Shown one piece after another: positions 9,094 to 38,700 of a DNA stretch of 64,000 nt (within the stretch, counting starts at the first letter, position 1; every line of letters begins with the position of its first letter). The DNA comes from Arcticibacter eurypsychrophilus (lineage in GTDB: Bacteria; Bacteroidota; Bacteroidia; Sphingobacteriales; Sphingobacteriaceae): contig NZ_MDFN01000001.1 in assembly GCF_001730525.1 (NCBI RefSeq), positions 1-64,000 on the forward strand, given 5' to 3'. The translations under genes and the position numbers were made by a program. The notes beneath the pieces are model-generated. The model ran no database searches and was not told where the DNA came from. It saw nothing but the letters and a program-made list of their open reading frames with translations.

Positions 9094-9645
9094 TTACCCT
9101 ACCGCCAACTTCCCACTCTCTTTCCAAATATAAGCAGGCATAGGCTCCTGAAGCTTCCATTCCACGTTCATTGGCTTCTGACCACTTGTTCTCATAAAAT
9201 CAGCCTTCCCTAAAAATACATAAGACATGATATTTCCAAACTCATCCTCATTCTGCTCCCGTACAAAAATCAATATAGTTCTTCCAAGAATATGTTGCGA
9301 GATATAAGCTTGACCCGATGCATTATCAGGAGATGCTCTATTCTGAGACTGCCAATGAAAAAGCGATTCACTGATAGCATAATCATCATACAATGTAGTT
9401 GGCGAATACTCCTTTTCAGATTTCTTCAATGTCACGAATAATACCTCAGTTTTCAGTTCTTTATTTAAAGCAACACCTTCCCTATTTGACGACTTTTTAT
9501 CAAAGTGATGAAAATGTAAAGCAGTCAGAATTTCATCACGGTTATACCGGCTATGCATCCGTAAGGGCATTTCGTAATGAAGCTCAATATCCTTTTCTAT
9601 AAAGTCCACTCTATTAATTAATATTGCCAGGACCTCTTCCAGTTC
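9094..9645 (-). pseudogene. C-terminal DUF3427 part of the adjacent helicase, beyond an in-frame amber codon
   Basis: The 171-residue GTG-initiated frame at 9094-9609 is not a separate gene. It is in the same reading frame as 9646-12267 (offset 552 bases, divisible by three), and the linking codons ELEEVLAILINRVDF are open after the TAG at 9646-9648. It holds the conserved C-terminal half of DUF3427 (SRYNRDEILTALHFHHF, YVFLGKADF, MNVEWKLQEPMPAYIW). Without readthrough it would be untranslated or made as a fragment. Confidence 0.8.
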
Positions 9646-12267: not shown

Positions 12268-12269
12268 CC

Positions 12270-14398: not shown

Positions 14399-15601
14399 TT
14401 ACAACAACCCTAACCCCCTTAAAATATTCACCCCTATCTCTTTAATCAAAAACCCTGTCCCCTCATTACTTACCCAAGCATCCGATACAATAATACCACA
14501 CGCTTTCTCCCCTAAATCACTTTTCTTAAAGTAGCTCACATTGGCAAAACCACCTTCCTGTAAATCTGCTTCACCTGGGAACAATAAGTAGCACTTAGCC
14601 GCATCAAAATAATGGTGATAGGCAAACATCTGCCTAAGATCATCCATACCTACATTTTTTACCTGGTTACAAATGTTTTTCCATTTTGTATCAATCACCA
14701 CAAATTCCTTTTCGCCAGAAATAACTGCCTTTTCAATCACGATATCCGGTTTTAGATACCTATGCGTAGATTGGTGATTCCAAAACTTAGTAGAGCGTTG
14801 GTTATAAATCACCAGTGTGCCGTCATTTGCTTTTTGCAACATCCTGTAAATGTATTCTTCCCATAATTTATTCATATCAAACAGAATAGCAATGGAATGA
14901 GAAGAACCAGAACTTATATCCGGACGATAGTTGAGCAAGAACAGTTTAGCAATTTGAATCGCAGACTTATATGATTCAGATTTCCGATCAAATATTAATT
15001 TATCAAACGTTGAGGCATCTACTTTCAGATCTTTCACATCAGCGAAATGAAGTTGCAACTGATAACATTGTGAAAGCAGATACTGATTATTACAAATCAG
15101 CGGTAAGATCTTAATCGCTTTACCCAAAATTTGGTGGAGTATGTGATCCCGGTCATAGGTAGCTTTCGATATATAAAACAGTTCTTTATGAACCACATTT
15201 TTGATAATATGCTTCTGCAGTAACAGCCTACCCTTTAAAGCGGTATGATTCACTTCTTCGGTTCTATATTTCTTAATTAAACCAGCACGAAGCAGATAAT
15301 TTACCTCATTAATAAATCGCTCGATATAAAGATCAAGAATAGCGTTACTCTTTAACTTAAAGCAAGCATTACAAACCGATGGAGTATCCAGGGAGCATCA
15401 AACACGTAACATGTTTATTAAAAAGCCCTGCCATTTATTATATTCATCCTCATCATTAAAATCAAAAGTCTTATCTGGCTTGGGAAGAATTTCTACAATT
15501 AAGTATCTTTTTACCGTTAAACAAACACCTGGTCTTGCGAAAGGAGTGGCTTCGATAAACGTTAATTTCACGGGGCCAAAAGAACCAGAAGAGCACGTCC
15601 G
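14399..15601 (-). pseudogene. mcrC copy 2: McrC-family gene with in-frame TGA and missing N-terminus
   Basis: The longest frame (14399-15253, 284 codons) carries the McrC core: ALKGRLLLQKHI, the nuclease strand KPDIVIEKAVISGEKEFVVI followed by DTKWK, and MDDLRQMFAYHHYF. The same frame continues upstream through FKLKSNAILDLYIERFINEV to a TGA at 15398-15400, and beyond it to an N-terminal part (VCLTVKRYLIVEILPKPDKT) that is open until 15602. The catalytic region is therefore intact, but the N-terminus is separated by a stop and no start codon or McrB partner is adjacent. Confidence 0.8.
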
Positions 15602-20323: not shown

Positions 20324-21979
20324 TCAATTTTTATCACCAGAATCATACATGTTAATTTGATGCTGTTGATTATTAAGGAGAGTAAGTTTAGAATCTTTAA
20401 AACTGAAATATTTATCATAATTTAATTGTAAAAATATCAATATTTCAGGCTTTTTGACACTTTTATCATTGTGTGATACCCTTTGATAAAGCTTTGTAAT
20501 TGGCCCTAAATGCGGTTTTTTTAACTCTAAAGTACCATTCTGTAAATTGGTGATAATGTACTTCAATACTATATCCTCTGGATGCTCCTTTAAAATATAT
20601 TCATGAACCGATGAAGAACCTAAAGCCTCTGATTCTACATCATTTTCTTCGTTTAATATTTCGTTCTGTACAATTTCCTCAATTTTCTCAATTTGAGGAA
20701 ATGGATTGACATTTGCTAAATCATGTATGTTTTTATCTAATTCTTCATTAATATTAATTTTTCCATCAGACTCTACACTGGAACCTAAATCCCTCCCTTC
20801 ATGAACTAAACCGGAATCATTAAATTCACCTTCATAATCGGAAGGAAAATCAATAAAATCTTTTTTCAGAAACCCATCAACAATTGGCTGTAGATTAGTT
20901 TTAATATCAACCTTAGTTAAATCAGTTTCTTGAATTGTTCTCTGTCCTGATGTTAACGTATCATCATCTATAATTTTAGTCTTATAGATCTTAACTTCTT
21001 TTAGGTTATATAAATCATAATAGAATTTTTTATAGCCAAAATAATAACCAATAAGATTTAACGATTGTAAAAGTTCCCTTACATACATGTTTCGAGTGCA
21101 ACTATATTCAACAATCACCTCTATATTTGTATCAGAAAGATTGTCTTTGTTCAACAACAAATTTTTAAAGTATAAGAAATAAAGTGCTGTTATATAATCT
21201 TTGCTCCCATCAGCTGATGTCAACTTATCCTTCAAGCCCGCTGTCTTCTCATTACTTTCTTCCAATAACGGGATCATTTTCGAAAGTTGTTTTTTATCCT
21301 CAAAAAACAATCTATTTTCCTGCAAATAGCTATGTAGTTTACTGCCTTTAAATGATGGACGACCGTTGTAATGGGCCAATATTTGTCCTACATCGTAGAA
21401 ATACCCGAAATCATTATTAGGAAAAAATTCATCCCTATCATACAATAAAAGATTTTCATAAAAATGTGTCCCACTATGAGAAAAAGATTTTTTACCATTA
21501 ATTTTCAACTCTATTAAATGATCAAGTGAGAAACTAATGTCAGTCGGGCAATATACTTTATTCGAAAAATACTTTTCAAAAAGCTTCCTTATTGCATCCG
21601 CACCTCTTTTATGTTCCTGAATGTCTACATAATTTTGATAATCTTCATAGGCCTCTTCAAAAATTGCATCTTCAAATTTAAAACCAATGTCAAACTTTAA
21701 CTCGTATGAATGTTTAGCAGCTCTAGTGAGAGGATAGATTTTTAATGCTTGACTAATCCTTAAATCATTAGCTTTTCCAATCTCATCACCAACTTCAATT
21801 ACTATATATGCTTCGTCACTCTCAAAAAAGGGACAATCTTCTTTGAAAATTTGAAGTAAATAATTTTTGAGAGCATTCAAATCAACTCCACTGAAGCTTG
21901 GAATGTATTTCAAAGGAATTTCCCCGAACCTAATCAATGATGCAAATTCAGTCTTTGATAACAATAAATACAGTTTCAT
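20324..21979 (-). CDS. Unassigned 551-aa protein, third gene of the Hsp70-helicase operon
   Basis: A frame is open from 22006, but the ATG at 21977-21979 (MKLYLLLSKTEFASLIRF) lies 4 bases after the helicase stop and fits better. No motif I know. The N-terminal 130 residues look alpha/beta (AYIVIEVGDEIGKANDLRIS), the middle is helix-rich with many aromatics (LQSLNLIGYYFGYKKFYYDL), and residues about 370-470 are acidic and low complexity. No signal or membrane segment. Tight coupling to the Hsp70 and helicase genes suggests it is the specificity or effector subunit; that is inference only. Confidence 0.7.
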   Translation of the reverse strand: MKLYLLLSKTEFASLIRFGEIPLKYIPSFSGVDLNALKNYLLQIFKEDCPFFESDEAYIVIEVGDEIGKANDLRISQALKIYPLTRAAKHSYELKFDIGFKFEDAIFEEAYEDYQNYVDIQEHKRGADAIRKLFEKYFSNKVYCPTDISFSLDHLIELKINGKKSFSHSGTHFYENLLLYDRDEFFPNNDFGYFYDVGQILAHYNGRPSFKGSKLHSYLQENRLFFEDKKQLSKMIPLLEESNEKTAGLKDKLTSADGSKDYITALYFLYFKNLLLNKDNLSDTNIEVIVEYSCTRNMYVRELLQSLNLIGYYFGYKKFYYDLYNLKEVKIYKTKIIDDDTLTSGQRTIQETDLTKVDIKTNLQPIVDGFLKKDFIDFPSDYEGEFNDSGLVHEGRDLGSSVESDGKININEELDKNIHDLANVNPFPQIEKIEEIVQNEILNEENDVESEALGSSSVHEYILKEHPEDIVLKYIITNLQNGTLELKKPHLGPITKLYQRVSHNDKSVKKPEILIFLQLNYDKYFSFKDSKLTLLNNQQHQINMYDSGDKN

Positions 21980-21983
21980 AATT

Positions 21984-23123
21984 TTAAAAATCGAAGTCAA
22001 AATCACCTTCTTTATTGGATAATTTTGTAGTAGTTAAATCTATAGATTGACAACTTGACTTGAATTTACTTACTAATGAATGTAGGTAATCACTATATGT
22101 AATAAACAAATTCTCATTACTTCTTGTCATTGCTACCATCAATAAAGTATCAGCATTGGATCTAGCAATACTCGTGCTATTGGATAGAAAGGGTAAAAAA
22201 ACATTTGCAAAATCCATCCCTTTAGCACTATGATAAGTCATAATTATTGTATTTTTTTTCATGGCAGCATTTGAAAATGACCCATAACTATTGCCTACAT
22301 ATTCGAGTTTAACACCTTGCTTTAATAAATGGCTATTAAGAGAGCCATAGTCGAAACTTCCCCAATTATTTTTCCTTACTTCCCATAAAGGTTTATTTAA
22401 TTTTTTCAAAACCCCATTCGCAAAATCAATTATATATTCATGCTTAGGTAATAGAATTGCAGAGGAGTAACCCTCTGAACTTGCTTCACTTGACTGCTCA
22501 TATACATACTTAATCTCCTCTTCTTTACTCAAAGCTTTGACTAGTCTGATCGTTACATCCTTTTTACTCATATCACGCTTTGCGCTAAAGATATCTAATC
22601 GAGGCATCAATGATGATACTGCTGACATGATTGATCGGGTAAGTCTGTATATTCGCGTTAAAATAAAGGGCCGCGCTGATAATATCCCTTCAGCCTCTAA
22701 TTCTGTAACAGTATTATCATATATTGACTGATTAACATCTCCGGCTACTATAACGTTATTACAACGATTTTTCATACTAGTCAAAACATCTGCCGGCAAA
22801 TCCTGAACTTCATCTACCAAAATATAATCATAAGTATTGCTATCTTTCATAAACTGGTAATGAGTCATAACAGGAATTTCTCCTAATCCGATATCCTTCA
22901 TCCCCTGTTTAAACATATCGATTAACGAATAAGTATAAACTACAACCGCTATTCTAGAATTTTTATTCTCACTAAGTTTTTTTCTAACAACATGTACAAG
23001 CATGACAGATTTACCACATCCAGCGAAACCCTTTACCCAAATATTTCCTTTCTTGTTTATTTCATCATCTACGAAACGCTTCTGATCATCATCAAGCTGT
23101 TCGTATCTTACCATCCATGACAT
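21984..23123 (-). CDS. Minimal UvrD/Rep-like superfamily 1 helicase
   Basis: Only 379 residues, yet all core motifs are readable: Walker A GFAGCGKS (32-39), Walker B DEVQD (104-108), motif III GDVNQS (128-133), motif IV near LTRIYRLTRS (155-164), motif V YHSAKGMDF (297-305) and motif VI VAMTRS (330-335). Typical UvrD has about 700 residues, so the 1B/2B accessory domains are reduced or absent, which suggests an ATP-driven switch or loader rather than a processive helicase. It lies 22 bases after the Hsp70 gene and 4 bases before the unassigned gene. Confidence 0.8.
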   Translation of the reverse strand: MSWMVRYEQLDDDQKRFVDDEINKKGNIWVKGFAGCGKSVMLVHVVRKKLSENKNSRIAVVVYTYSLIDMFKQGMKDIGLGEIPVMTHYQFMKDSNTYDYILVDEVQDLPADVLTSMKNRCNNVIVAGDVNQSIYDNTVTELEAEGILSARPFILTRIYRLTRSIMSAVSSLMPRLDIFSAKRDMSKKDVTIRLVKALSKEEEIKYVYEQSSEASSEGYSSAILLPKHEYIIDFANGVLKKLNKPLWEVRKNNWGSFDYGSLNSHLLKQGVKLEYVGNSYGSFSNAAMKKNTIIMTYHSAKGMDFANVFLPFLSNSTSIARSNADTLLMVAMTRSNENLFITYSDYLHSLVSKFKSSCQSIDLTTTKLSNKEGDFDFDF

Positions 23124-23145
23124 AGTTTAATTTTGCTAGTATTAT

Positions 23146-25593
23146 TTAAAAGGAATTTAGTTTTTTATTATTTACAGCTTGAGACAAATTTTCGCTATTA
23201 TATATCGCGTTAGTCTCCTTATTCGGCTCGGCGTCTTCAATCTCTTTTGATAATTCAGATTTACCTAAATAAGCCGCACAGGATGAAAACCAGCTATAAT
23301 CCCAAGAGTGTAGATCTTTGTCAGAATAACGCTTTTTCCAAGATTCAAACGCCTCATCAATTAATAAACCACCCTTTACCTTCTCACCATTACTTATTAG
23401 AAATCTACCGAAATTGAATTTAATAACTTCATCATTAGAATCTAAATTAAACGCTTGTTGAATGAATTTCCCATATTCGATTGCATTATTATTTTTAAAA
23501 TGCATAGCAATATTAAATGCAACGTTAGCGCTAGGAAACTTATCGAAATGCTTTTTATAAAACTTAATAGCCTTATCTTCCTTACCAGCTTTGCTATAAT
23601 GCAATCCAATATTATTGAGATTTCCGTTTCCCGGAAACAGTTCTTCCAGTAGTTCTAAAGTTTCTGCAGCTTTGAACTCCCTACCCAAAGTTTCATATAT
23701 CGTATGTAATTTTCGTAACGAAATCAAAGTAGGCTCTCCACCATTTCTTTCTGATTCTAGATTGAAATCTCGCTCGGCTTTATGCACAATACGGTCCTCT
23801 GTGCTCAATTCTTTGTTCGCAAAAGGACTTAGTGGCTCAACCATTATCTTATGATCCCCACAAACGGCCCTAATTTGAAGAATTTTATCTGCATTGATTT
23901 CTAACTCTAATCTAATCCTATCAGATGATATAAAATTAGTGCCATCATCCTTGTGCATCTTTATATTGTATAGTATTTTGTTCTTATTTCCAACACAAAT
24001 AGGCAGCTCAATCACATTTTGGTTATCCCTCTGCACGGTAAGATTATCTATCACGTTAATGTCAGACGGTATTAATGTACCAGCTTCAATAATTGGAGTA
24101 ACAATTTCCCTATAATCATCCTTATTTATTAGTAATATAGGTTCACTTGTTATTGGCTGAATAATATTCTTTCCATAGCCGTTTAGTACAAGACTATGTA
24201 TTGCGGCTCCAATTGAGACATGTGCCTGCAAATCTTTCGGTAAAAGAATAGTAGATTCTTTGAAAAAATCCTTCACCGCATATTGAATAAAAGGATTCTT
24301 TGAACTTCCTCCAATAAATAAAATATAATCTATATCTACCGGCTTCAATTTTGCTTTTTTTAATGCAGAATTAATCGGATTAAAAATGGAAATAAATTCG
24401 TATTCTTTTTCGATCTTGTTAGTAGGAGTCTTTTCTTTAATATTTGTAAAGATTGCATTTACTTTCACAAAATCTCTGATTGACATTTCGGGACCTTTTA
24501 AAACCAGTATTCCCTTGGAGGTATGAATTTCAATTTCTTTATTCCATGAAACTTTGAAGTCTTGATTTTTCAAATCCACAAGAGAACTGCTATCTTCTTT
24601 TAATGACATAGCCTCACATAACTGAATTTTTAATCGCTCAGCAGCAGCTAGCAGATTAGGTATAATCAACTCTTTGAGTTCTCTTGTTCGGAAGTCCTCT
24701 TCATTTAAAAAACTATTTTCAAACAATTTAGGAAGTAAAACATCAATGGCTATTAGTTTATCCACATCATCACCACCTAGTTTATCAAACTTTGATATAG
24801 CAATATTTTTTGAATAAACACCATGAACATCTTGTCCAATCTCTAAGATTGAAATATCACAGGTGCCTGCGCCAAAATCAAAAACTAAAACATTAGGGTA
24901 ATAATTTTCTGGTAATTTTATAACATTATTATTATCATAAGTTGAGCTCAATACATAACTTAAAAATGCGGCATTAGGTTCATCAATTAGCGATTGCCTA
25001 TTAAGCATAATTCCATTAGCTTCAATACTACTTATTAAATCTTTACGTTGATTCGCCTCAAATGAGGCAGGAATACTGATGGCGTATTCAATATTTTTAG
25101 GCAAGTGCTTTTCATCAACATACCTATCAACATGAGTTTTCAAATATCTAAAAAACAGTTTGGTAACATCTGTAGGATTTTGTAGCGTTGGACCAGGATT
25201 ATCCTTACCTAATTCACTATTGGGGTATTTACACCCTACATCTTCCCCCAATTCCATTTTGAAAGAATGCCATACATTCTTTCCGTACTTCAATTTGTAT
25301 TTCAATTTCTTTGCACCTTCTCCTATTAACAATTTATTATTATACCAAGCAACAACCGATGGTATACGATAAAAGGAATATGTGGTACCGTCATCTAATT
25401 TTTGATTTATATCAATTGATTTGGCGATGATTTCATTCGTATTTTTATCTAACATAGCAATACTTACTACTGTTGTAGATGTTCCAAAATCAATACCGAC
25501 GAAAGTCTTATTATGTATGTTATCTCTAAGGATATTCAAGTCACTATCACTTTTTATTGGTAATAGATTCTTAATGGTCAGTTCTTTACTCAT
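23146..25593 (-). CDS. Hsp70-family ATPase with C-terminal TPR-like repeats
   Basis: 815 residues. The nucleotide-binding domain is complete: phosphate-1 DFGTST (35-40), phosphate-2 DFGAGT (239-244) and adenosine motif GGSSKNP (428-434). A shortened beta region follows. Residues about 640-790 form TPR-like helical repeats (NNIGLHYSKAGKEDKAIKFY, NVAFNIAMHFKNNNAIEYGK). This is not housekeeping DnaK: it lacks the helical lid with an EEVD-like tail and shares an operon with a helicase. It is first in the three-gene unit. Role unknown; regulated assembly of a defence complex is my inference. Confidence 0.85.
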   Translation of the reverse strand: MSKELTIKNLLPIKSDSDLNILRDNIHNKTFVGIDFGTSTTVVSIAMLDKNTNEIIAKSIDINQKLDDGTTYSFYRIPSVVAWYNNKLLIGEGAKKLKYKLKYGKNVWHSFKMELGEDVGCKYPNSELGKDNPGPTLQNPTDVTKLFFRYLKTHVDRYVDEKHLPKNIEYAISIPASFEANQRKDLISSIEANGIMLNRQSLIDEPNAAFLSYVLSSTYDNNNVIKLPENYYPNVLVFDFGAGTCDISILEIGQDVHGVYSKNIAISKFDKLGGDDVDKLIAIDVLLPKLFENSFLNEEDFRTRELKELIIPNLLAAAERLKIQLCEAMSLKEDSSSLVDLKNQDFKVSWNKEIEIHTSKGILVLKGPEMSIRDFVKVNAIFTNIKEKTPTNKIEKEYEFISIFNPINSALKKAKLKPVDIDYILFIGGSSKNPFIQYAVKDFFKESTILLPKDLQAHVSIGAAIHSLVLNGYGKNIIQPITSEPILLINKDDYREIVTPIIEAGTLIPSDINVIDNLTVQRDNQNVIELPICVGNKNKILYNIKMHKDDGTNFISSDRIRLELEINADKILQIRAVCGDHKIMVEPLSPFANKELSTEDRIVHKAERDFNLESERNGGEPTLISLRKLHTIYETLGREFKAAETLELLEELFPGNGNLNNIGLHYSKAGKEDKAIKFYKKHFDKFPSANVAFNIAMHFKNNNAIEYGKFIQQAFNLDSNDEVIKFNFGRFLISNGEKVKGGLLIDEAFESWKKRYSDKDLHSWDYSWFSSCAAYLGKSELSKEIEDAEPNKETNAIYNSENLSQAVNNKKLNSF

Positions 25594-25872: not shown

Positions 25873-27246
25873 CTATTTAACAGGTAACTTAATTCCGATC
25901 TTATACACTCTACGGTAACCTTTGACTGTATTTTCTGGGGATGTTAGCTCCCCCACTTTAAAACTTTCCAGATCATATCCATTTTGAATATCGGGATAAA
26001 TAATCAAGCAATCGATCAGTCTATCTTCCTCAAGACCTAAAGCTTTAAATATTTTATCTAACCGCGCATATCCTGATACTTGCCTAATATCATTATGGTC
26101 TTTACCATAAATGTATAATGGTTTATATTTTGCATCAATTACCATTTTAACAGAACCAGAATTGACAAGAAAATCAAGCTCGTTTCCATATGTTTTGGTG
26201 TGATAATTAAGGTCGTTCTTGTTTGGAAAGCGATTTCTAAGAAAATTATAAGTATAGAGCTCAAACAACTTTGGCATATCTATCCAATAAGGAGGGGTCG
26301 TTAGCTGTTGCTTGTTAGTATTCGTTATAGAATAAGCGTATCTTTTTAAGATTAGCTTAGCTTGTTTAATAGCATCTTTATACTCAGCAAAAAAAGGATT
26401 TGGTATATGATCTTTTACTTCCAGTATATTAACTTCATTTGAAACAGCATCAAAAGCTGGCCTGCAATAATTAAGTAAATTTTCAAAATGGTCAATGGAA
26501 TCATTAAAAACTTTTTTATGATTATCAATATAGGCATGTGAAAACTGTAGTGCCTTCTTTAGTAATCGGTTTTCAAAACTATCAATACCAAATTCTTCAA
26601 ACTGACACAATGTAGTGGTAAATTTGTTCTTAAAAACGTTCTGCTTTAGGTTTTGCCCTATTAGTACCTTACCTTTTATTTTACAATTGAGATTTTGGCT
26701 AACCTTGTAATACGATTTTTTTAATCCCTTAGCTACAAGCCTCTTTAAAGTATTCAAGAACTGAACAATTAATAATGGACTTAGCCAGTCATGCTCTTGG
26801 TTGATAGGAACCTCTTTTGCATTCCAGTTAATGTAAATCAGTTTATCGATTTCCTTATAAAGAAAATCAACTGAAATACATTGATTTAGCATAGCTATAT
26901 AATCAATTGCAACGTTAGCTCCATTGTCATGATTATTCTTAAGACCTTCATCTACATCAATTTCTTCATCACCATTTTCCGCTAACTCCCCTTTAATAAC
27001 CTCTATCCTTGTATCTAATTTAGGCGCTACTACAATTGAGCAATCACCTTCAATGAGCCAATCAACACCAATGTAATAACCTACTTCAATTTTAATATAT
27101 TCTTTTAACTGCGTAGATTTATAACAATGCAAATTAGGGTTTGAGCCAAAAAACCGATTGGTAATTTTTTCAGGATTACTAAAACTATCCAACGTAATCT
27201 GATTCGCCAAATGTTCCCAATAATCAAACTGCTTAACTTTATTCAT
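25873..27246 (-). CDS. mcrC: McrC-family nuclease subunit of type IV restriction
   Basis: 457 residues, full length. The N-terminal beta domain (IEVGYYIGVDWLIEGDCSIV) is followed by a helical region (FENRLLKKALQFSHAY). The nuclease core is YGNELDFLVNSGSVKMVIDA followed by KYKPL, matching D...ExK of PD-(D/E)XK. It starts one base into the McrB stop (overlap at 27246), so translation is coupled. With McrB it should cut DNA carrying modified cytosines. This is the only intact mcrC of the three in the window. Confidence 0.85.
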   Translation of the reverse strand: MNKVKQFDYWEHLANQITLDSFSNPEKITNRFFGSNPNLHCYKSTQLKEYIKIEVGYYIGVDWLIEGDCSIVVAPKLDTRIEVIKGELAENGDEEIDVDEGLKNNHDNGANVAIDYIAMLNQCISVDFLYKEIDKLIYINWNAKEVPINQEHDWLSPLLIVQFLNTLKRLVAKGLKKSYYKVSQNLNCKIKGKVLIGQNLKQNVFKNKFTTTLCQFEEFGIDSFENRLLKKALQFSHAYIDNHKKVFNDSIDHFENLLNYCRPAFDAVSNEVNILEVKDHIPNPFFAEYKDAIKQAKLILKRYAYSITNTNKQQLTTPPYWIDMPKLFELYTYNFLRNRFPNKNDLNYHTKTYGNELDFLVNSGSVKMVIDAKYKPLYIYGKDHNDIRQVSGYARLDKIFKALGLEEDRLIDCLIIYPDIQNGYDLESFKVGELTSPENTVKGYRRVYKIGIKLPVK

Positions 27247-29207
27247 TAAGGAAACATATTTTTAATAGATTCAATTTTTTCCCTTAATTCTGAAGACTCT
27301 TTTAGCACACCATCTTTAATGTATTCTTCCAAAACAGGAATAATTTCATACTTTAAGCGCAGAGCAGTATTTGCTTCCGGATTTTTAATGAAATAACTAT
27401 GCCCAAGCCATACGTCCTGAGGCCTAAATTCTGAAGATAGATATTGTGAAGGTTCAAGCTTTGCAGAATAAGGATCAATAACAAATAGCTTAGATACCTC
27501 AAAAAACAAATCAGTTTCAAATGGAACATTCTCTAACTTTTCTGGAAGAACATCAACAAATGCAAATCGTCTTCTTATTGCATAGTCAATATGGCCAACA
27601 CTTCGATCTGCAGTATTCATAGTGCCAATTATGAATAAATTAGGTGGTAATATTATTTTCTTGTTACCATCTACTTCATACATACTGTCTACCTCTTCAC
27701 CTCTATATTCTAAAGCATAAATTAATTCTCCCAAAACAGATGAAAGATTAGCTCTATTGATTTCATCAATAATTAAAACATAATTTTTCAAGGCAGTTTT
27801 CTCTTCCAGTTTGCGAGTATCAATTTCCGCCTTGCTTGAAGTAACAAATTCATTAAACTTTTCAACAGTATTAAAAAAGTATACAGCATGCTGTTTTGTT
27901 AAGGCTTCTAAACCCTCAACATTTTCCATATCGGCCCTTATTTTTACTTCAGCGAGAATTAACTTTTCAAGCTCAGAAAACTTCATATTTAGTCCTTTTT
28001 CATGAGCTACCCAGTTATCCCCCTTATACTTAAATCTAAGTTCGTCGCATTCAAAAAGGTAAACATTTTCTGTTAAAGAATATTTATGGTTTTCATTATT
28101 TGAAATCACATCATTGACATGTTCAATAAATCTATCTAGATCGCTTCTTGCTTGAATTATTTTTTTTGATTCATCTTTTTGGGATTGGCTTAACTTGTAA
28201 TTTTCTAAAGCTTCAATCGCTAACTTTGCAAGTAAATTATTTCTACCTTCATATAATATCCCATCACCATCTAAATTTGGAACAGCCACAATACCCCTTA
28301 CGAAATCCTCATAAGTGTATGAAGGATGAAACTGGATCAATTTATATGAATCAGATGATTCAATATTATTGGTTGTCAATCCTATGTTATCGTAAATATA
28401 TTTTGCTACCGCTGCGCTATAAGGATGCAGTTGATTTTTTTGTTCCCCTTTAACACTCCATCTTTTACTTTTGTACCATTCAATAATTTCCTTAAAGTTA
28501 GGAGAGTAAAAAGAGGTACCTACTTTTAATTTGACATTATTATCTGTTATCTCCTCAATCACGTAGGTAGCTTTCTCTGCAACACTTTGAAATTGATCTC
28601 CAACCTTTAAATGCTTTTTGATATCTACGGCAGAAATAGTATCAGGTTTTTTAGCAGAAACTTGTTGGTGATTAACAAGTGCACTTGCTATTTCTTTCGC
28701 AAGTCTTGTTTTTCCAGTCCCCGGAGGACCCTGCAATATAATCTGTTTTTTGTATTTCAACAGTTCAACAATATTGTCTAATTTCTTCATTTCTAATTTC
28801 TTATTCACTCTTTGAATCCATTTTTTCGCAAAAGAACTGTCACTAATACTAGCAAAGGATGCTAGCTGAAATATGCCGTCTATTTTCCTTCCTAACTCTT
28901 GTTGTACATTATCAGTGAACCATTCTACAACTTCAACTTTTCTTCTATTTGAAAACCAGTCTAATTCCCAATTAGGATTTTTTACAAATTCTGCATTTCC
29001 TGTAATCCTAACTAAGGCCAGAGGTCCATTACTTCTAACGATTACGTAGTTTCCAATCTTAAGTTCATCTTTGAACTGACGTATTTGCGCTTCTCCCTCC
29101 TTCCACTCACCAATACCTATATAACTGGTTTTTTCTAGAACTTCTTTTATTTTATTAGGTCCCCAAGTTTTATCATTAGGATGCAATTGAATATGCCAAA
29201 CACTCAT
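27246..29207 (-). CDS. mcrB: McrB-family AAA+ GTPase with N-terminal EVE-like domain
   Basis: 653 residues. Residues 1-95 resemble an EVE/PUA-like modified-base reader (MSVWHIQLHPNDKTWGPNKI, then IGNYVIVRSNGPLALVRITG). The AAA+ module has Walker A GPPGTGKT (160-167), Walker B DEINRA (481-486) and the McrB GTP-specific signature MNTADRS (530-536). An insertion of about 150 residues separates the Walker motifs. It drives translocation by McrC after reading a modified base. First gene of the mcrBC pair; it lies upstream of the Hsp70 operon on the same strand. Confidence 0.88.
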   Translation of the reverse strand: MSVWHIQLHPNDKTWGPNKIKEVLEKTSYIGIGEWKEGEAQIRQFKDELKIGNYVIVRSNGPLALVRITGNAEFVKNPNWELDWFSNRRKVEVVEWFTDNVQQELGRKIDGIFQLASFASISDSSFAKKWIQRVNKKLEMKKLDNIVELLKYKKQIILQGPPGTGKTRLAKEIASALVNHQQVSAKKPDTISAVDIKKHLKVGDQFQSVAEKATYVIEEITDNNVKLKVGTSFYSPNFKEIIEWYKSKRWSVKGEQKNQLHPYSAAVAKYIYDNIGLTTNNIESSDSYKLIQFHPSYTYEDFVRGIVAVPNLDGDGILYEGRNNLLAKLAIEALENYKLSQSQKDESKKIIQARSDLDRFIEHVNDVISNNENHKYSLTENVYLFECDELRFKYKGDNWVAHEKGLNMKFSELEKLILAEVKIRADMENVEGLEALTKQHAVYFFNTVEKFNEFVTSSKAEIDTRKLEEKTALKNYVLIIDEINRANLSSVLGELIYALEYRGEEVDSMYEVDGNKKIILPPNLFIIGTMNTADRSVGHIDYAIRRRFAFVDVLPEKLENVPFETDLFFEVSKLFVIDPYSAKLEPSQYLSSEFRPQDVWLGHSYFIKNPEANTALRLKYEIIPVLEEYIKDGVLKESSELREKIESIKNMFP

Positions 29208-30220: not shown

Positions 30221-30568
30221 CTATTTTGGAAGATTGATCACACAGTCCTTTGAGCAAGCAAAACTTCGTATAACACTTTTTTGAATAAATTCAGGATCTA
30301 TAGCACCATAAAACTTAATAGGATTCCTGTGGGACTGATCAGTTCTATCACTGGATGAACGGATGAACGGATCGCTGCGCTGAATTCCCCCCACTTTCAT
30401 AGAAACAAAACCTTGTTTAGATTTCTCGGAAGGACGTGCTTTACGTGCCCAATAATTGAATTTAATGAAATTGATGCCTTTTTCCTGACAATAGCCGATC
30501 TGGCTTAAGCCGATATGGTGCCAATCGTTTACGTGGCGTGACATCTCTGATTGTAATTCCTGGTTCAT
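30221..30568 (-). pseudogene. IS66-family accessory protein TnpA, remnant
   Basis: 115 codons starting MNQELQSEMSRHVNDWHHIG, then LSQIGYCQEKGINFIKFNYW, like the helix-turn-helix TnpA of IS66 elements (W...G.SQ..YC...GI....F.YW). GQ-type GFVSMKV follows. The latter half (NPIKFYGAIDPEFIQK) fits the TnpA end but has extra residues before the stop. No tnpB or tnpC of IS66 follows, so it is an isolated remnant even though the frame is open. Confidence 0.6.
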
Positions 30569-30644
30569 GCTCCTGATTGTTTTATTTTCATAAGCGAATC
30601 TAGAAACTTAGATAATCTGACAGGGAACGGTTTTTACCAAAAAC

Positions 30645-31532
30645 TTAGCGCTTAAGTAGATTTTTCACATCAAACTCAATGATAAGTTTTGAATTTATGA
30701 ATTCAACCTTAAGTCTTTTAAGCGATCGAATATTCATTGTTAGTTCTGCTATTTCATCTTCAATTTCGCCAATTTTTTGAACGTCAAATTTATCCTCCTC
30801 ATAAACTATCAATAAAACGGGCACAGGTGTTCTCAGTAAATTTCTTTTGTAATAAGACACCACACTTTTTAGCTTCATCAACACCTGAGCAACGTTTGCC
30901 GGCAATATTGCGCCCCTAAAATATTTAATCTCAACTATGCGATCGAGATATCCGCTTGCTGTTGCTTTTAGTAAAACATCCACTTCAAACCGATTACCTA
31001 AACGTTGTTGTGCAAGTATTCTATAATTGGGGCTGTTATAGGCTTCAAACCTAGCAATTACATCTTCCTCCACTTTTAAATAATGAAAAATAATTGATTC
31101 ATCAACTGATTTTGTGATTTTATTTATTTCATTACCCGCTTCCAGTTCATCTTTTACTTTTTCAACTACTTGCACCGGAGTTAAAGCCTTAATCTCCAAA
31201 CCCAACTTTTCAATTTCCTTTTTAAATTTTTCATTTATCACAGCTTGCCACTTAGCCCACCTGATTAAGCCTTTTATTAATGAAAATGTGCCAACACCAA
31301 AGATTACGATGCAAATTCCCAAAACGTATTTTTGTATGAACAAAACTTTGTCAATTTTATCGGTTATTAGGTATTGAACGGCTGGTTGATATTTATGTAT
31401 TGCCATAGCCTCTACATACAGCCCAAAATCCTCTTTTAAATAAAGATAAGGGGCTAAAAAACTAATAGCAATCAACGCAATTCCAATTGAAACTAGGAAC
31501 TTATTTATATCACCGTATTCAACTTTTTCCAT
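30645..31532 (-). CDS. Membrane-anchored PD-(D/E)XK-like protein
   Basis: A frame is open from 31646, but the first 38 codons look non-coding and MEKVEYGDINKF at 31530-31532 is the likely start (295 residues). Two membrane helices are visible: FLVSIGIALIAISFLAPYLY and VLGICIVIFGVGTFSLI. A cytoplasmic domain follows in which NRFEVDVLLKA and DRIVEIKYFRG (residues about 178-205) have the D...ExK look of a restriction-endonuclease fold. It lies downstream of the Gabija-like pair with a gap of about 150 bases. Not a family I can name; the nuclease call is from the motif alone. Confidence 0.6.
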   Translation of the reverse strand: MEKVEYGDINKFLVSIGIALIAISFLAPYLYLKEDFGLYVEAMAIHKYQPAVQYLITDKIDKVLFIQKYVLGICIVIFGVGTFSLIKGLIRWAKWQAVINEKFKKEIEKLGLEIKALTPVQVVEKVKDELEAGNEINKITKSVDESIIFHYLKVEEDVIARFEAYNSPNYRILAQQRLGNRFEVDVLLKATASGYLDRIVEIKYFRGAILPANVAQVLMKLKSVVSYYKRNLLRTPVPVLLIVYEEDKFDVQKIGEIEDEIAELTMNIRSLKRLKVEFINSKLIIEFDVKNLLKR

Positions 31533-31684
31533 AAGAGTTTTTTTGGCTTCGAAGCCTATAAAGATAATTAGAATCACATTTACTTTAGTCCTATCTCTAA
31601 TACATAGAACTAAGCACCTTTCCTCCCAGTACAAAAAACAAAGCAATACTGATTATTAGATAGCTATCATAACTAATGCAAAAA

Positions 31685-33613
31685 TTAGATTTCAATTACG
31701 TTACCATTAGAAAACCACTCTTTTGCTTTTTCTATTACCTGTGCATCTGGATTGTGGTAGTATACCGCTAGATTCTTTTTTGCTCTGGTACAACAGACAT
31801 AAAATATTTTTTGAGTTCTTTCTAATACAGTCGCCAAACCCGTTTCTAAAAAAAGATTTCCGAAATTATAATTATTCCAACCACCATTGTCCAGAATAAC
31901 CAAAACATTATCAAATTCAGCACCTTTAGTTTTATGTTGTGTTGAAAATGGCGTTTGCCCTTCTAAATATTCAAATAACTTTTGAAATTCACTAAATCTG
32001 ACATCTTTTACACGATTGTAGAGATATCCTTTCTTCTCTTTGAAATCAATGAGTTTGTCATCAATAATACAAATGCCTTTCTCGTTGGCATCAGTAATTA
32101 CTTCTTCTATTGTTTTATCGCCAACTTTTACAAGGCTATCAATATTTTCTCTTAGTGTTCTTTTACTTGCTATACTTATTATATTATAACGATAGTCAGT
32201 GGCTCTTAGAAACTCATTATACTTTCTATTTTTATACAGAGAAATATTAATTTGAATTTTAAATAGATGCTTTATTAGATTATCTCTTTTAGAACCCTTC
32301 TTATTGCCATCATCTTCATCATTTTTTTTATCATCAAGTAACTGGTCTTTATCTACATACATTTTAGAAAATTCAGAGTATTTTAACGATTTTGCATATT
32401 CAAATAATTCTGCATTAATACCAATAAACGCCCGCATTGTATTAGTAGGACTAACAGCATTCATCTCTCTACCACTTTTGCCTGACTGCAATATTTGAAT
32501 TACCTCACCGAATGTGTTTTCTGAAAAATCAGTCGGAAGAGCATTCTCTTTTATGAATTTTTTAATTCTATCTCTAAAACCTATTATCTGGTCTTTATCG
32601 TAAATATCCATTAACGTTCTGAACCCTGCTTTGCCTGCTATTAAATTATGAGTGAGGTTTAATTCTTTTGTCTCTTTTGAATTATGGAAATCCCAATCAT
32701 AATTCTCTTTTAAGAATTCCTCAACCTTATTAATATTACCATCAGTAGAATGCAAAAACAATACACTTCCCTGCTTTACAACACCTCCAAACATATTGGG
32801 TGCATTTGGGTCGGTAGAAGGTTCTTGTATAATACCATCTGTACGGAGTTTATTAGCTAAATTTATTACTAGTTGAGGGTTTCTTCTGTTCTGTGTCTTT
32901 GAAATTTCATTTACAGTACCTGCATCGTCTCCTTTGTACTCATTTAAATTTCCAATCCCATCTTCATAAATTGATTGCATTGCATCGCCAAAAAAGCCGA
33001 TAACATTTCTCCTTTCGCTTTTCTTAAAGTGATTGAGAAATGTATCCACAACAGTTTTACTGGTATCCTGGTATTCATCAATAAATATGAACTTATATTT
33101 ATCCTTTACAATACTGCTAAGTTTGGGGTAATTCTTAAAAAGGTAGTTTGCAACTATAAGCAATTCATCGTGGGAAATTATTCCTTCACGCAACCGCATA
33201 AACTCTTTGTATTGTATACCATCTGGTAAGTTGTCGAAGAAATTATCAGGAACAGAATTTAGATTATCAATTAATATCTTGCTAACGTCTTCAGTATTCG
33301 CTAATGAAATGATTGCTTCTTTAAGTTCTTTTTGAAAGTGCTTTATACTATCCCATAAGAAGTCATGAATTGTAGATACATTTAGGTTCTTATGATTTAC
33401 TCTTTCTTCAATTTCTTTCACTGCTGAATTGGTATATGTCATACAAGCTACCTTTGCTGTCGAATTTTCAGCTAGTACCTGACGAATAACACTTACCAGT
33501 GAATAGGTCTTACCACTTCCTGCACCGCCACTTAAAAGAAAGTTTCTTCCAGCATCAATTGATTCGAAGATTTTCTGTACTTCGGGTTCCAAGTTTAATC
33601 TTCCTTCAACCAT
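31685..33613 (-). CDS. gajB: GajB-like UvrD/Rep superfamily 1 helicase (Gabija-type)
   Basis: The ATG at 33611-33613 (MVEGRLNLEPEVQ) is preferred over the longer frame; 642 residues. Motifs: Walker A GGAGSGKT (29-36), Walker B IFIDEYQDTSKT, motif III FFGDAMQSIYED, motif V STQHKTKGAEF and motif VI CCTRAKKN. It overlaps the 3' end of the GajA-like gene by 19 bases, the arrangement of Gabija antiphage systems. In that system GajB senses nucleic acid and supports the GajA nuclease. The same pairing defines class 2 OLD loci. The protein is somewhat longer than the best-known GajB. Confidence 0.78.
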   Translation of the reverse strand: MVEGRLNLEPEVQKIFESIDAGRNFLLSGGAGSGKTYSLVSVIRQVLAENSTAKVACMTYTNSAVKEIEERVNHKNLNVSTIHDFLWDSIKHFQKELKEAIISLANTEDVSKILIDNLNSVPDNFFDNLPDGIQYKEFMRLREGIISHDELLIVANYLFKNYPKLSSIVKDKYKFIFIDEYQDTSKTVVDTFLNHFKKSERRNVIGFFGDAMQSIYEDGIGNLNEYKGDDAGTVNEISKTQNRRNPQLVINLANKLRTDGIIQEPSTDPNAPNMFGGVVKQGSVLFLHSTDGNINKVEEFLKENYDWDFHNSKETKELNLTHNLIAGKAGFRTLMDIYDKDQIIGFRDRIKKFIKENALPTDFSENTFGEVIQILQSGKSGREMNAVSPTNTMRAFIGINAELFEYAKSLKYSEFSKMYVDKDQLLDDKKNDEDDGNKKGSKRDNLIKHLFKIQINISLYKNRKYNEFLRATDYRYNIISIASKRTLRENIDSLVKVGDKTIEEVITDANEKGICIIDDKLIDFKEKKGYLYNRVKDVRFSEFQKLFEYLEGQTPFSTQHKTKGAEFDNVLVILDNGGWNNYNFGNLFLETGLATVLERTQKIFYVCCTRAKKNLAVYYHNPDAQVIEKAKEWFSNGNVIEI

Positions 33614-35691
33614 AATAAACCATTTTTGATGTATGAAGGAATATTCCAATTACTAAATTCTTTATCACTATGATATAAAATATCTAATGCAAAATGAGTT
33701 TTCTTTTTTATACACGAACTTGCTAATAAATAAGCATTACTTACAACGTCATCAAATAACTTTCGGTTTTGTAGCCCTTGAAATTCATCTTTATTACCAT
33801 TTACAAATGCACGATTAATATGAATAAATGCATCTTCAAAACTCCTAGCATTATACTTTTCGTCGTTTTCGTTTAATTCGTCCTGCTGATAGCATATACA
33901 AACAGAAGAGCCTCCCACAATAATAATTCTGTTGGCTATGGGTAATGCCATCAAGTCGTTCCAAGCAATTTCTTTTAAAAAATGATTAATCGCTGAATTA
34001 CTTGTTTTTGTTCCTTCAACAACAGGACAAGCTCCCCAAACATCTTGCCCTTTGTCATCTTGTTTTAATACTTTAATTGCATCGATATCTGTTAAAATCA
34101 AAGATTTAACACCTAAAAAATCGATAAATTTCTCAAAGATTTGAGAGTACGCTCCTACTTCAATTATGGATATATTTTGAGATAATAGCGGCAGAAAAGT
34201 GTCTTCGTTACCTTCTGCTTTTAAACGAGTTTCTTCCTCTAAATCTACTTTCCGCATAAAGGTTGGTATCAATATTCTTTCAGTATCCCCCTCAATAAGA
34301 ACCGCCTTATCAGCAAAGAAAATTTCAGCCCTGCTAATAGTTAAATACTGCTTTAAGAATTGATATTGTTTTGGATCAGTATCATATTGCTTTCTTAAAT
34401 CAGACAAATTTTTTGCAACAACATTATTTTTGTTTTCTGCTTTTAAATATTTGATATCATTGAAATCACTATCAGCAACAATGTGAGATGAATGTGTTGT
34501 TATTATGTATTGAAGTGGTCGATTTATTCCATCCTCTCGTTTTACACCTTCACCAAGCAATTTTTTTATATTTTTTATAAAAATATATTGCATTTGTGGA
34601 TGAGTGTGTGCTTCCGGTTCTTCTATAATGAGCAAATTTATATCTGCTGGCTTTTTTTCTTTGTCTCTTTTGAAATCTTGCACGAGAATTTCGATTTCAA
34701 AAATCATACTTATCAGATTCATATACCCTAAACCATTATAGTGTTCTGGTAGCTTATGGTCATCATGGGTATATACTACAGTTGTGTTACCTTCAAGTAA
34801 TTCCCTATGTTGTAATGTTGAAATAATTGCTATATCCGTATCATTAAGCTTGATCCCCCCAAAATCTTGTACTTTTTTAATTACATCACTGAACAAGTCT
34901 TTGTATATATTGCTTAATGTACTATCAGTTTCTGAAAGTTGGTCTTTGAAATTTTCAGTAGCATGATTTTTTTCGGCGTTATCTTCTTGTTTTTTATAAA
35001 GGTTGGATGTATGCTTAGACAATGTATTTTCCTTTTCTTTATTAGTTACATCTCGTCTTGCACTAATATATTTGAAGCCTAAAATATCTTTAATACTAAT
35101 CCCTTCACTTTCAAGGTCTATGAAGTTTGCATCATTAGCTTTATTAGAAGCCACATCGTATTCAATAGATAGTTTATGAGTAAAAAAATAATTTTCTAAC
35201 TCTTTCCTTAAAAAATCATTTAGATTACCAGGTTTGCTTTTCTTTCCGTCATCAACTTTTATCTTTTCTTTTGTTGTATATATTGCAAAGTCAGCTCTAA
35301 ACTTCAGGAAGTCATTATAGCTTACTGTGTATTCAAACCCCAACACAATCTTATTGTTTTCAGGGTCTAAATCCATTAATACTCTACTAACATTTGATAA
35401 ATCATCTTTTTCGTTGTATTCAATAAACACCTTTAGCTTGATACCTTTAGGTGTAAATACTTCAGGAATAACCTCAGATTTTATCAGACCTTCTAGTTCG
35501 TTTTTAAAGTCTATATTCAAATCATCATAAGAAAATTTACTTTTCTCATTCAAAAATTTGTCGAGAACAGCAAGGATAGATGTCTTTCCAGTGTTATTTT
35601 TTCCAATGACCAAAGAAAGTTCTTCTTCCAAATCCATAGAAAAATCTTTTAACAATCTAAAATTCGTAATTGTAAGTTGCGTTATTTTCAT
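33595..35691 (-). CDS. gajA: GajA-like OLD-family ATPase/TOPRIM nuclease (Gabija-type)
   Basis: The frame is open from 35790, but MKITQLTITNFRLLKDF at 35689-35691 is the natural start; 698 residues. ABC-type ATPase: Walker A GKNNTGKT (30-37) and Walker B LLIIEEPEAHTHPQ (353-366). The TOPRIM nuclease follows, with LIEGDTER (465-472) and TDIDA (534-538) holding the metal-binding acidic residues. Class 2 OLD nucleases of this kind pair with UvrD helicases, as here. A DNA-nicking role in phage defence is family knowledge. It follows the type IIG gene by about 90 bases on the same strand. Confidence 0.8.
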   Translation of the reverse strand: MKITQLTITNFRLLKDFSMDLEEELSLVIGKNNTGKTSILAVLDKFLNEKSKFSYDDLNIDFKNELEGLIKSEVIPEVFTPKGIKLKVFIEYNEKDDLSNVSRVLMDLDPENNKIVLGFEYTVSYNDFLKFRADFAIYTTKEKIKVDDGKKSKPGNLNDFLRKELENYFFTHKLSIEYDVASNKANDANFIDLESEGISIKDILGFKYISARRDVTNKEKENTLSKHTSNLYKKQEDNAEKNHATENFKDQLSETDSTLSNIYKDLFSDVIKKVQDFGGIKLNDTDIAIISTLQHRELLEGNTTVVYTHDDHKLPEHYNGLGYMNLISMIFEIEILVQDFKRDKEKKPADINLLIIEEPEAHTHPQMQYIFIKNIKKLLGEGVKREDGINRPLQYIITTHSSHIVADSDFNDIKYLKAENKNNVVAKNLSDLRKQYDTDPKQYQFLKQYLTISRAEIFFADKAVLIEGDTERILIPTFMRKVDLEEETRLKAEGNEDTFLPLLSQNISIIEVGAYSQIFEKFIDFLGVKSLILTDIDAIKVLKQDDKGQDVWGACPVVEGTKTSNSAINHFLKEIAWNDLMALPIANRIIIVGGSSVCICYQQDELNENDEKYNARSFEDAFIHINRAFVNGNKDEFQGLQNRKLFDDVVSNAYLLASSCIKKKTHFALDILYHSDKEFSNWNIPSYIKNGLLWLKED

Positions 35692-35783
35692 AAATTGAAT
35701 AGAATTTTTTGAACTTGACTTAGAAAATATGTTAATGAGAAAAGAGGTAAAATTTATATTACAATAATACTGAGAATTAACAA

Positions 35784-38700
35784 TTAGCAATTCTCAACAA
35801 TGTGTATTTCATCTGCAGTCAAATCATAAAGCTTATATACTAAAGCATCTATTTTTTTGTCCGTACTATCTATTTCTGCTTTCAATGATAAAACTTTTTT
35901 TACTTCCGCAGTAAAAAACCTTTCCCACTTCACCTCTTGATCAAGCGATAGTTTTACTTTTTGTTTCTCTAATTCTTTTATAAAATCGGCATAAGACAAG
36001 AAATACCAATCTTGTAACCTTCTAGGTAAAATTTCCAAATCAAAATTTCTTTGTAATATTCTTTGAAACATTTGAGAATGTTCTTGTAAATCTATGTTTA
36101 ATGATAACATTAAATCTGCTTTTTCAAGAAACGGAGCTTGTTGTTCAACAGTAATTTCAATAATTGGAAGTTTCCGTATATCTCCAATTAAAATCTTTGG
36201 AAACGTTAATCTATTTCCTTTAGGAGAATTCATTATATTAAACCATGATAGAAGCTTAGAATTTATTAATGTTAGAAGGTATTTTGTGTTTAGACAAGAA
36301 ATATTTATACATGATATTATTCCAGGATCATGAAATAATTTACCTGAATAATTAATTGCTGAAATTCTTGGAGGTTTACCACCAGTTATTTCTTGAATCA
36401 AAATTCTGTCCTCAAAAAAATATTTAAACTTTCGTGCACGATGTAACCAAGCACCATAATTTAAGTATTCATTATTGGAAACGTTTAAAGTATACCGCTT
36501 TATTGCTCTTCCTTGAATCCAAACTCCATAATTCTCATCTAAAGGCTGATTGTAGTGATAAACTCTGTTTTTTACTTCTTCTTTTGTTAGGTATTCCGTA
36601 GAGTATGGAACAATCCCTTGACAAACATCAATAAATTTACTTGCGACTTGAGATTTTGAGTTTATTTTATTAATAATTAATATATCTGCTTCATTTTGTA
36701 AAACTTGAAATTGTTTGTCTTCTGAATTCTTCCAATTTTTTATAAAGCCTACTTTGGTAATATTTGACACATTTGAAAGATTATCAACTTTAGAATCAAA
36801 ATTTACAATTTCACATTCCTCATTTTGTCCTTCTAATGTTAATATAAAAACTATCGCATTCAAACTTGCATCTTCAAAAACTGAATTTTTAAAAATTACT
36901 ATGTTATTAAGTCCATAAAGTTCTAAGATATGTTCTCTTAATTTTTTTGCTTGCGGAATGTTTATCCAAGTATCAGGAGTTATAAAACCAATTTTTCCTT
37001 TTGGTTTTATAATAGAACTTATTAGTTCAATAAAAAAGAAATAAATTTCAAAGTTGCCTTGAAAGGTATTGAATTTTTTTTGATAATAATTTTTACTTAT
37101 TTTATCAATAAAGGCACCATATGGTGGATTTCCAATAATGACGTCAAAACCACCGTTGTCAAATATTGCAGGAAACGCCATTTTCCAATTAAATGCTTTC
37201 TCTCCTGCAATGGCAACATCATCTATCAATGAATTTCCACATTTAATATTGTTGTTTAAATCGTTTAGTTTTCGGTTTGGTCTGGCTGTTTGTAACCATA
37301 AAGAAAGTTTTGCTATTTCTACACTTTCCTCATTCAAATCAACACCAAAAAGATTGTTTTCTAAAATGCTCTTTTCAATATCACTTAACACCAATGCTTC
37401 CCCTAATAGTTTGGCTTGTAATTCGTCTATGTACCTATGTTCGGCAATTAGAAAATCTAAGGCTTGGCTTAGAAAAGCTCCACTTCCACAAGCGGGGTCG
37501 CATATCTTAATATTTAGAAGCCAGTTACGGTAATTGATTAATTTATTTAATAAAGGTTTTTTAGTAAGTATATTTCTTTTTTTGTCAGTAAAATATTCTT
37601 CTTCAATAATTTTAAATTCTGCTTTTTTATCAGTGCACAATTTACCGATAGTATTATCAACAATGTATTTCGTTATGTATTTTGGAGTGTAAAATACACC
37701 ATCTTTTTTCCTTTTAGTAGTTGCTTTGTCTATTACTGTTCCCTCTAATCGTGCTTTAATTTCATCCAATTCATTTAATGAATTCTCGAAAATATGGCCG
37801 AGAATATTTACGTCAATTTCACTTTCAAAATCATATTCTGATAATTTCAAAGTGTGTTTATACAATAGCTCGTCATCTATTCTGATAATGTCTAAAACCT
37901 CATCCGGCTTAAACAAGCCACCATTATATGCAAAAACATCATAACGCTTGCCCTTAAATCCTGTATTTAGGTATTCAAAATACTTTTTAAATCTATTGTA
38001 CAGAGGTACGTTCTCATCGCGTTCTTGTAAATCTCGCCAGTCGTTCAAAATCAAGCGTACAGAATTAGGTGGCAACAATTGGCGGTCTTCAGCAAAGAAC
38101 AGAAACAAAAATCTATCTAATAATTTTTGTGATTTTTTGAATAACCCTAATGCCTCAAACTGAGGATTTTGTTTTACTAAATCTCGATGCAATTCCCTTT
38201 TGAACTCTGAATAATCAGAATATAAAGCTTTAGTAATGTCTTTTTCTTTGCTTAAAGATTGTTCTTTTAATTTCTTAGGTATATCATTTGCAATACTATC
38301 ATAAGACAAACATAAATAGAGCAATTCAAATTCTTTTTCTGTAAGCAGGAATAAATTAAACTCTAAAAACTCTGTTGCGTTGTCTATATAAAACCTCAAC
38401 TTTTCAAAGTTCGAAGTTATTACATAAACGCACTCTGGTTGATTGTTTTTATATCCAAATGCTTGAACTTCTATTTTGCCTAAATCCGTAGTATTTGTTC
38501 CTTTTAGTTCAATTACTGCTTTAACTTTGTTACTGATAAGAATAGCTCCATCAGCCTTTTTACTGTCTTTAACATTCTTATATTCAGATGTTAATGTAAA
38601 GTTTGGTGTAGGATTTTTCACATAGCCTAATACATAAACGAACAAATCAATTAAGAACTCTCCCTGATATTGCTCTTCTTTACTGTTACGAATATTATCT

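Follow-up and report, generated by a model that had tools for sequence, protein, structure and literature searches.

What would be the role of a small protein in which two predicted membrane helices precede a domain resembling restriction endonucleases, and does its position beside a Gabija defense system tell us anything of that role? This question is raised by a gene encoding 295 aa at 30645-31532 on the minus strand of the window, by which we mean the whole stretch of 64,000 nucleotides analyzed here. The first-pass annotation had reported an ORF at this place, two membrane helices and a D...ExK pattern that looked like a PD-(D/E)XK fold, and it left the family without a name. The observation is confirmed, and the interpretation is supported by the analyses below, with amendments as to the neighborhood and as to the rarity of such proteins.

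As to the gene itself, five full-length homologs were found, and the six members are 288-306 aa long, all with two predicted membrane helices. The ORF matches the annotated coordinates, with an ATG at 31532, while the mechanical ORF extends upstream, to a TTG at 31646. The ATG is backed by the homologs, whose alignments begin there and not at the TTG, and at three of the six loci an in-frame stop precedes the aligned start by 2-6 codons; GTG or TTG is found at the aligned start in three of the six genes. A scan of 30400-32000 yielded eight promoter-like sites versus 6.5 (sd 2.5) in shuffled sequences, and one terminator-like site versus 0.7, counts close enough to the shuffles that nothing usable comes from them. 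Two hydrophobic regions are present in all six members, as counted by merging overlapping stretches of the hydropathy output by hand, and the two helices of the first-pass annotation thus stand as predictions. In the window protein, these regions correspond to about residues 7-34 (31431-31514, minus strand), which are conserved and overlap a helix modeled at 6-33, and about residues 59-93 (31254-31358, minus strand), which lie inside a long modeled helix (50-116). The 30 residues past the second region contain seven K/R versus three D/E, which would fit a cytoplasmic C-terminus, but this excess is small or nil in the five other members (8/6, 7/7, 6/4, 7/6, and 6/4), and the membrane orientation is therefore given as a prediction. 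A secreted or surface nuclease was dropped as a candidate, as the C-terminal side is predicted to be cytoplasmic.

The C-terminal half, residues 144-290 (30663-31103, minus strand), is predicted to form a PD-(D/E)XK nuclease domain. A single-sequence AlphaFold2 model was set aside (mean pLDDT 46.6), and the model used here was built on a six-row alignment of the window protein and its five homologs. This model has a mean pLDDT of 76.6 and a pTM of 0.50 for the whole protein, with block means of 83-91 in the nuclease part (residues 151-290) and low confidence around residues 116-143. Following the two N-terminal helices, it places a helix at 139-164, strands at 170-178, 182-190, and 198-205, a helix at 211-232, a strand at 237-244, a helix at 251-265, and a strand at 275-280. 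The core of PD-(D/E)XK enzymes runs helix-strand-strand-strand-helix-strand, and the predicted order, helix-strand-strand-strand-helix-strand-helix-strand, contains it.

Comparisons with solved structures, in which VIA-align 2 was run over candidates supplied by Foldseek, point to the same fold. The top matches are mostly nucleases, the best being Can2 (8q41, Z 10.4, 126 residues, 2.8 A), followed by McrC (6hz4, Z 10.0, 131 residues, 3.3 A), VC1899 (1xmx, Z 9.9, 118 residues, 2.8 A), whose entry title gives no function, a repair endonuclease (2vld, Z 9.9, 104 residues, 2.8 A), EndoMS (5gke, Z 9.5, 111 residues, 3.6 A), and BsoBI (1dc1, Z 9.5, 144 residues, 4.2 A). The top nuclease rows stand 2-3 Z units over the non-nuclease rows (LRRK2 Roc, GATOR1-RAG, SEAC/EGOC, and ABC transporters, Z 7.0-7.6). 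At the level of fold, the solved structure of SduA also gives a match (Z 7.4), in a range (Z below 8) where a score may reflect merely a common arrangement. With Foldseek itself, SfsA (4dap, 4e-4) was the sole PDB entry at E <= 0.001, EndoMS-type repair endonucleases came next at about 1e-3, all with low whole-query TM-scores, and six viral models reached the same threshold, of which one bears the name of a RecB-family nuclease. The expectation of a PD-(D/E)XK-like core is thus borne out by the model and by both structure comparisons, rather than replaced by an unrelated fold.

The putative active site of this domain is conserved. Of the two motifs singled out from the sequence, NRFEVDV contains D185 (30978-30980, on predicted strand 182-190), and VEIKYF contains E201 and K203 (E201-x-K203, 30924-30932, on predicted strand 198-205), placing the conserved D and E-x-K on the second and third core strands, as is typical of PD-(D/E)XK enzymes. 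These three residues are invariant in all six members, which is the outcome that the first-pass annotation had proposed to check, and so are E155 (31068-31070, in the helix before the sheet; all on the minus strand), D197, Y204, and Y228. As just 10 columns out of 147 in the nuclease region show no variation across the six members, the chance that all three residues named beforehand would fall into such columns is 10*9*8/(147*146*145), or about 2e-4, by simple counting that ignores other reasons for D, E, and K to be conserved. The Pfam family PDDEXK_9 is matched by one of the six members (E 0.0017), while GM_CSF (8e-4) and Lys_Orn_oxgnase (1.4e-3), each matched by a single member other than the window protein and treated as chance or at best a lead, have E-values that are similar or better, so that such values alone prove little. 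The case for a putative nuclease is carried by the predicted fold and the conservation of residues, not by Pfam E-values.

No curated family fits convincingly, so the protein stays as nameless as it was at first reading: nothing convincing was found for the window protein in Pfam, PADLOC, NCBIfam, or PHROG, and a PDB sequence search gave nothing better than E 0.67. In Pfam-A scans up to E 10, a setting at which the HMMER filters remove most matches above 0.1, none of the six members matched RmuC, DUF4041, or GIY-YIG, nor did they match the profiles of the Mrr_cat, NERD, or Shedu DUF4263 families; a remoter, fold-level kinship to RmuC may nevertheless exist. The window protein matched neither GajA nor GajB of PADLOC up to E 0.01. 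A few other matches were treated as chance or as leads: for the window protein, Imm70 (E 0.21, under the profile cut-off), from which a link to polymorphic-toxin immunity was considered and dropped, phrog_12444 of unknown function (E 0.0083 over 31 residues), and CreC and MakA (E 0.03-0.05); and, each for a single other member, the PADLOC Cas8b model and FtsL (both E 0.0019). The FtsL match may reflect a helix followed by a coil, and the N-termini of SNIPE, a system to which we return below, are said to resemble FtsB, PilO, and PspB (PMC13190303).

The family is patchy, with five other full-length copies, 26-42% identical to the window protein, and one remnant. Using residues 149-245 against genome contigs, two full-length members were recovered among 106 pattern matches, from an uncultured Flavobacteriaceae (L022, 42% identity over the whole length) and from Cellulophaga fucicola (L023, 39%). 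Profiles built from these two then gave three more, one in a different family of the same class (L032, genome G1213, 26%) and two in the window's own family (L036, genome G1352, 41%, and L037, genome G1337, 28%). We presume the family to belong to Bacteroidota, from the taxonomy of the two named records and from the kinship labels of the searches. A decayed N-terminal remnant (L024) is present in genome G745.

Single-sequence searches, which are less sensitive than profile searches, found the gene in its own genome only, both among 299 relatives and among 395 genomes of the phylum, the latter with 20 weak places (E 0.006-0.09) left out; the best two were read and are unrelated, and by reading L003 overlaps a LuxR-type regulator and L004 overlaps a GldN-like protein. 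The profile searches found the gene in the window's own genome, G1352, and G1337 among 231 genomes of the order, in its own genome and G1213 among 395 genomes of the class, and in G1213 alone among 46 genomes of that family, along with one remnant among 397 genomes of the family of G613 and none among 226 genomes of the order of G613, counts that come from overlapping samples and must not be summed, and that leave out marginal matches, including those in G1321 (E 9e-4) and G1590 (E 5e-4). Six low-scoring matches beside the remnant in the G613-family search were likewise uncounted, and a match in G280 sits in a 331-aa ORF judged unrelated. With the six-row profile, one copy per genome was found in four genomes, leaving out an extra match in G1213 that covers 51 model positions (E 0.08). 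Mobile sequences gave no relatives: none was found in viral contigs, none in phage records (tblastn with two members), and no significant one in plasmid records (tblastn with four members), where a single match to the window protein had an E of 9.

Unexpectedly, the conservation within the family is highest at the N-terminus with the first helix and low in the nuclease, an inverted pattern. Over the 15 pairs of the six members, a small set in which L022, L023, and L036 share more with the window protein than L032 and L037 do, the mean pairwise identity is 59% for residues 1-37, the highest among the stretches compared, 26% for the loop (38-66), 37% for the second helix (67-96), 28% for the stalk (97-143), and 28% for the nuclease (144-290), rising to 44% in the core formed by its strands 2 and 3 (181-206). 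As a plain anchor need not keep each residue, a role in binding or in assembly may be ascribed to the conserved N-terminus, and it may be the membrane part, better conserved than the nuclease, that carries the main function. A tentative idea, which we rate as improbable on balance, is that the strongly conserved helix is the recognition part of a single-gene type of defense whose nuclease drifts except at the active site, the helix docking on one conserved component of the envelope that is exploited by phages to bring in their DNA, or sensing one kind of membrane disturbance. The pattern would predict that the helix binds something that varies little between hosts.

As to the genomic neighborhood, the gene starts 152 bp past the end of gajB (Gabija helicase, 31685-33649, PADLOC E 2e-238), itself preceded by gajA (OLD-like nuclease, 33595-35790, PADLOC E 7e-281), all on the minus strand, and its GC content (0.33) is close to those of the two Gabija genes (0.32 and 0.30), the window mean being 0.375. 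The adjacency to Gabija pointed out by the first-pass annotation is thus real in this genome, but it does not extend to the family: tblastn searches (E 0.01) with GajA, GajB, the type IIG enzyme, McrB, and McrC gave nothing at the five other loci, of 9.9-19 kb each, and the adjacency looks accidental. No neighbor ORF of at least 40 aa within 6 kb, where the locus reaches that far, recurs among the six loci, and four alignments of 27-34 residues between neighbors were taken as chance. From these two results, the gene product probably acts on its own or together with housekeeping partners.

Defense or conflict genes are present near four of the six copies, PADLOC having been run on chosen neighbors, and such a raw count from six loci is weak evidence for defense. 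The window has Gabija, a type IIG restriction enzyme, and an McrBC-like pair. At L022, a gene for a PDC-S54 candidate defense protein (PADLOC E 3e-104) lies 1.8 kb downstream of the homolog; this protein (10262-11500) has, by reading, a nuclease-type-looking motif, VAECKF, near its C-terminus. The locus in G1352 (L040) has a retron RT-Toprim I-C gene (PADLOC, E 2e-177) and a DUF2971/PDC-S31 protein; here, at 9487-12773, the homolog has after it a divergent DUF2971/PDC-S31 gene as well as the retron RT, to which a Toprim-type domain is fused. The Panacea antitoxin at L023 (E 3e-21) is paired with a PemK-like protein that scores under its cut-off. At the same locus, the gene for a protein of 131 aa (756-1151), in which two hydrophobic stretches were noted by reading, ends 7 bp before the Cellulophaga homolog; it is possibly an operon partner there, and no relative of it recurs at the other loci. 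The remaining two copies are among ordinary genes by reading, flanked by glutathione peroxidase-like and TetR-type genes (L034) or by atpD-like and ilvD-like genes (L041), and PADLOC matches of the neighbors scanned there are to generic ATPase models, the best being an ABC transporter-like protein versus mad3 (E 2e-34), with one match to Cas12c (E 0.0096).

A few further features of the window may be recorded here. At 20324-25593, three genes run in the same direction and are possibly an undescribed conflict module; they encode an Hsp70-like protein (815 aa, weakly matching TPR), a small helicase of SF1 type (379 aa), and a protein of 560 aa that fits no family convincingly. The McrB/McrC-like pair is located at 25873-29207 (Pfam McrBC E 7e-27 at 25873-27246, AAA_5 E 6e-18 at 27246-29207), the AAA protein carrying about 130 residues ahead of its ATPase part. 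Near-alike copies of part of what by reading looks like an McrC-like protein are found at 7363-8126 and 14399-15253, the former split over two ORFs and with about 48 residues duplicated internally. Just downstream of the gene, a small ORF (30221-30568), without Pfam or PADLOC matches, presumably resembles an IS66-type accessory protein and may be an insertion-sequence remnant.

What, then, does the protein do? Computation supports the fold, the catalytic signature, the two hydrophobic regions, the patchy spread, and the lack of a recurring neighbor. On balance, and by analogy with ShdA and SNIPE, which are described below, we lean toward a single-gene, inner-membrane-anchored PD-(D/E)XK nuclease, a stand-alone accessory defense gene that would act on incoming DNA, with orientation, nuclease activity, DNA substrate, sensing or activation at the membrane, and defense role all being inferred. 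The two helices would place the nuclease, with E155, D185, E201, and K203, on the cytoplasmic face, joined to it by the helical stalk of low model confidence; tethering would keep the nuclease away from the chromosome and close to the sites of foreign DNA entry through the membrane; and a trigger, sensed through the conserved N-terminus and first helix, either as binding to a conserved envelope protein or as assembly on membrane disturbance, would then license cutting. Several observations weigh against this reading, namely that two of the six copies are among ordinary genes, that plasmids, phages, and viral contigs yielded no significant homolog, and that the nuclease is the less conserved part of the protein compared with the membrane part.

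Among the alternatives, we consider it unlikely that the protein is a growth-control toxin or an abortive-infection effector, with the nuclease released or activated against host nucleic acid. The GTG/TTG starts of three copies would suit the low protein level that such a toxin calls for, and a toxin-antitoxin-like pair is found near the Cellulophaga copy, but the Panacea/PemK-like genes look, by reading, like a pair of their own, and, as no small partner gene recurs, an antitoxin is not apparent. That the gene encodes instead a chromosomal DNA-maintenance nuclease like the housekeeping RmuC, whose layout follows a membrane/coiled-coil order, is quite unlikely in our view. The two copies among ordinary genes would fit such a role, yet a maintenance gene would be expected to be widespread, not limited to the own genome among 299 relatives (single-sequence search) and to the own genome plus two among 231 (profile search), the six members lack RmuC matches in Pfam-A, and the decayed copy L024 suggests that the gene is dispensable. 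In favor of such a role is also the restriction-endonuclease-like fold of E. coli RmuC, as stated in PMC10270631. A nuclease-fold domain that binds nucleic acid without cutting it would be in line with the overall variability of this domain, but a mere binder would have no expected need for a catalytic set invariant in six of six members, which makes such a role very unlikely. Most improbable is an accessory component of the window's Gabija operon, for which strand, spacing, and similar low GC would speak, as neither gajA nor gajB is found in the 9.9-19 kb around each of the five other copies and no neighbor recurs among the six loci.

The favored reading, of a tethered defense nuclease, is best judged against the systems already described. 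Can2/Card1 enzymes are top-ranked among the solved folds (Z up to 10.4), the matches spanning residues 136-295, but according to their entry titles they bind cyclic oligoadenylate, and they do so through a domain separate from the nuclease, where the present protein has predicted membrane helices instead; as the Can2 score ties within 1 with those of McrC and others, no special kinship to Can2/Card1 is implied. McrC shares the fold (Z 10.0) and is the partner of the McrB GTPase, the window's own McrBC-like pair being separate genes. As to more complete parallels, membrane-tethered defense nucleases are a known kind, while neither the family nor its two-helix layout or inverted conservation was found described in the family libraries or in the open-license papers searched, where a nameless family offers no name to query. 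The family would add a compact, nameless case to the few membrane-tethered nucleases that may cut DNA where it enters the cell, and it may help to stop viruses. Zorya and Kiwa, as reviewed in PMC12904381, likewise tie defense to DNA entry at the inner membrane (an action on entering DNA that we propose here by analogy), but each takes more than one gene, the membrane sensor and the effector being different proteins, and KwaB binds DNA but does not cleave it.

The first-pass annotation held such proteins to be rare and to appear in some defense systems, a statement that can now be made specific, as two precedents are available, ShdA of Shield (PMC10270631) and SNIPE (PMC13190303), and it is on these precedents that a tethered nuclease aimed at entering DNA is proposed. 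SNIPE, according to PMC13190303, cuts phage DNA while it is being injected, and it becomes toxic when its membrane segment is missing. It resembles the present protein, as predicted here, in being a single protein with an N-terminal membrane anchor and a cytoplasmic nuclease, and differs in combining DUF4041 with a GIY-YIG nuclease, a type of nuclease other than the fold predicted here, and in its conservation, which is highest in the nuclease and very low in the N-terminal region, the reverse of the present family. ShdA, from Pseudomonas, is described in PMC10270631 (and also in PMC11090510) as carrying an N-terminal membrane domain followed by a restriction-like RmuC domain and as occurring in the membrane fraction; it suffices alone for protection, once freed of the membrane part it acts as a DNase in vitro, and truncated shdA alleles could not be cloned. 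Its domain, of the RmuC type, its length of about 520 aa (from construct names), and its host set it apart from the present family of 288-306 aa, found in other bacteria. In sharing the order of an N-terminal membrane segment and then a restriction-endonuclease-like domain, as predicted here, ShdA is, by analogy, the nearest working counterpart of the present protein.
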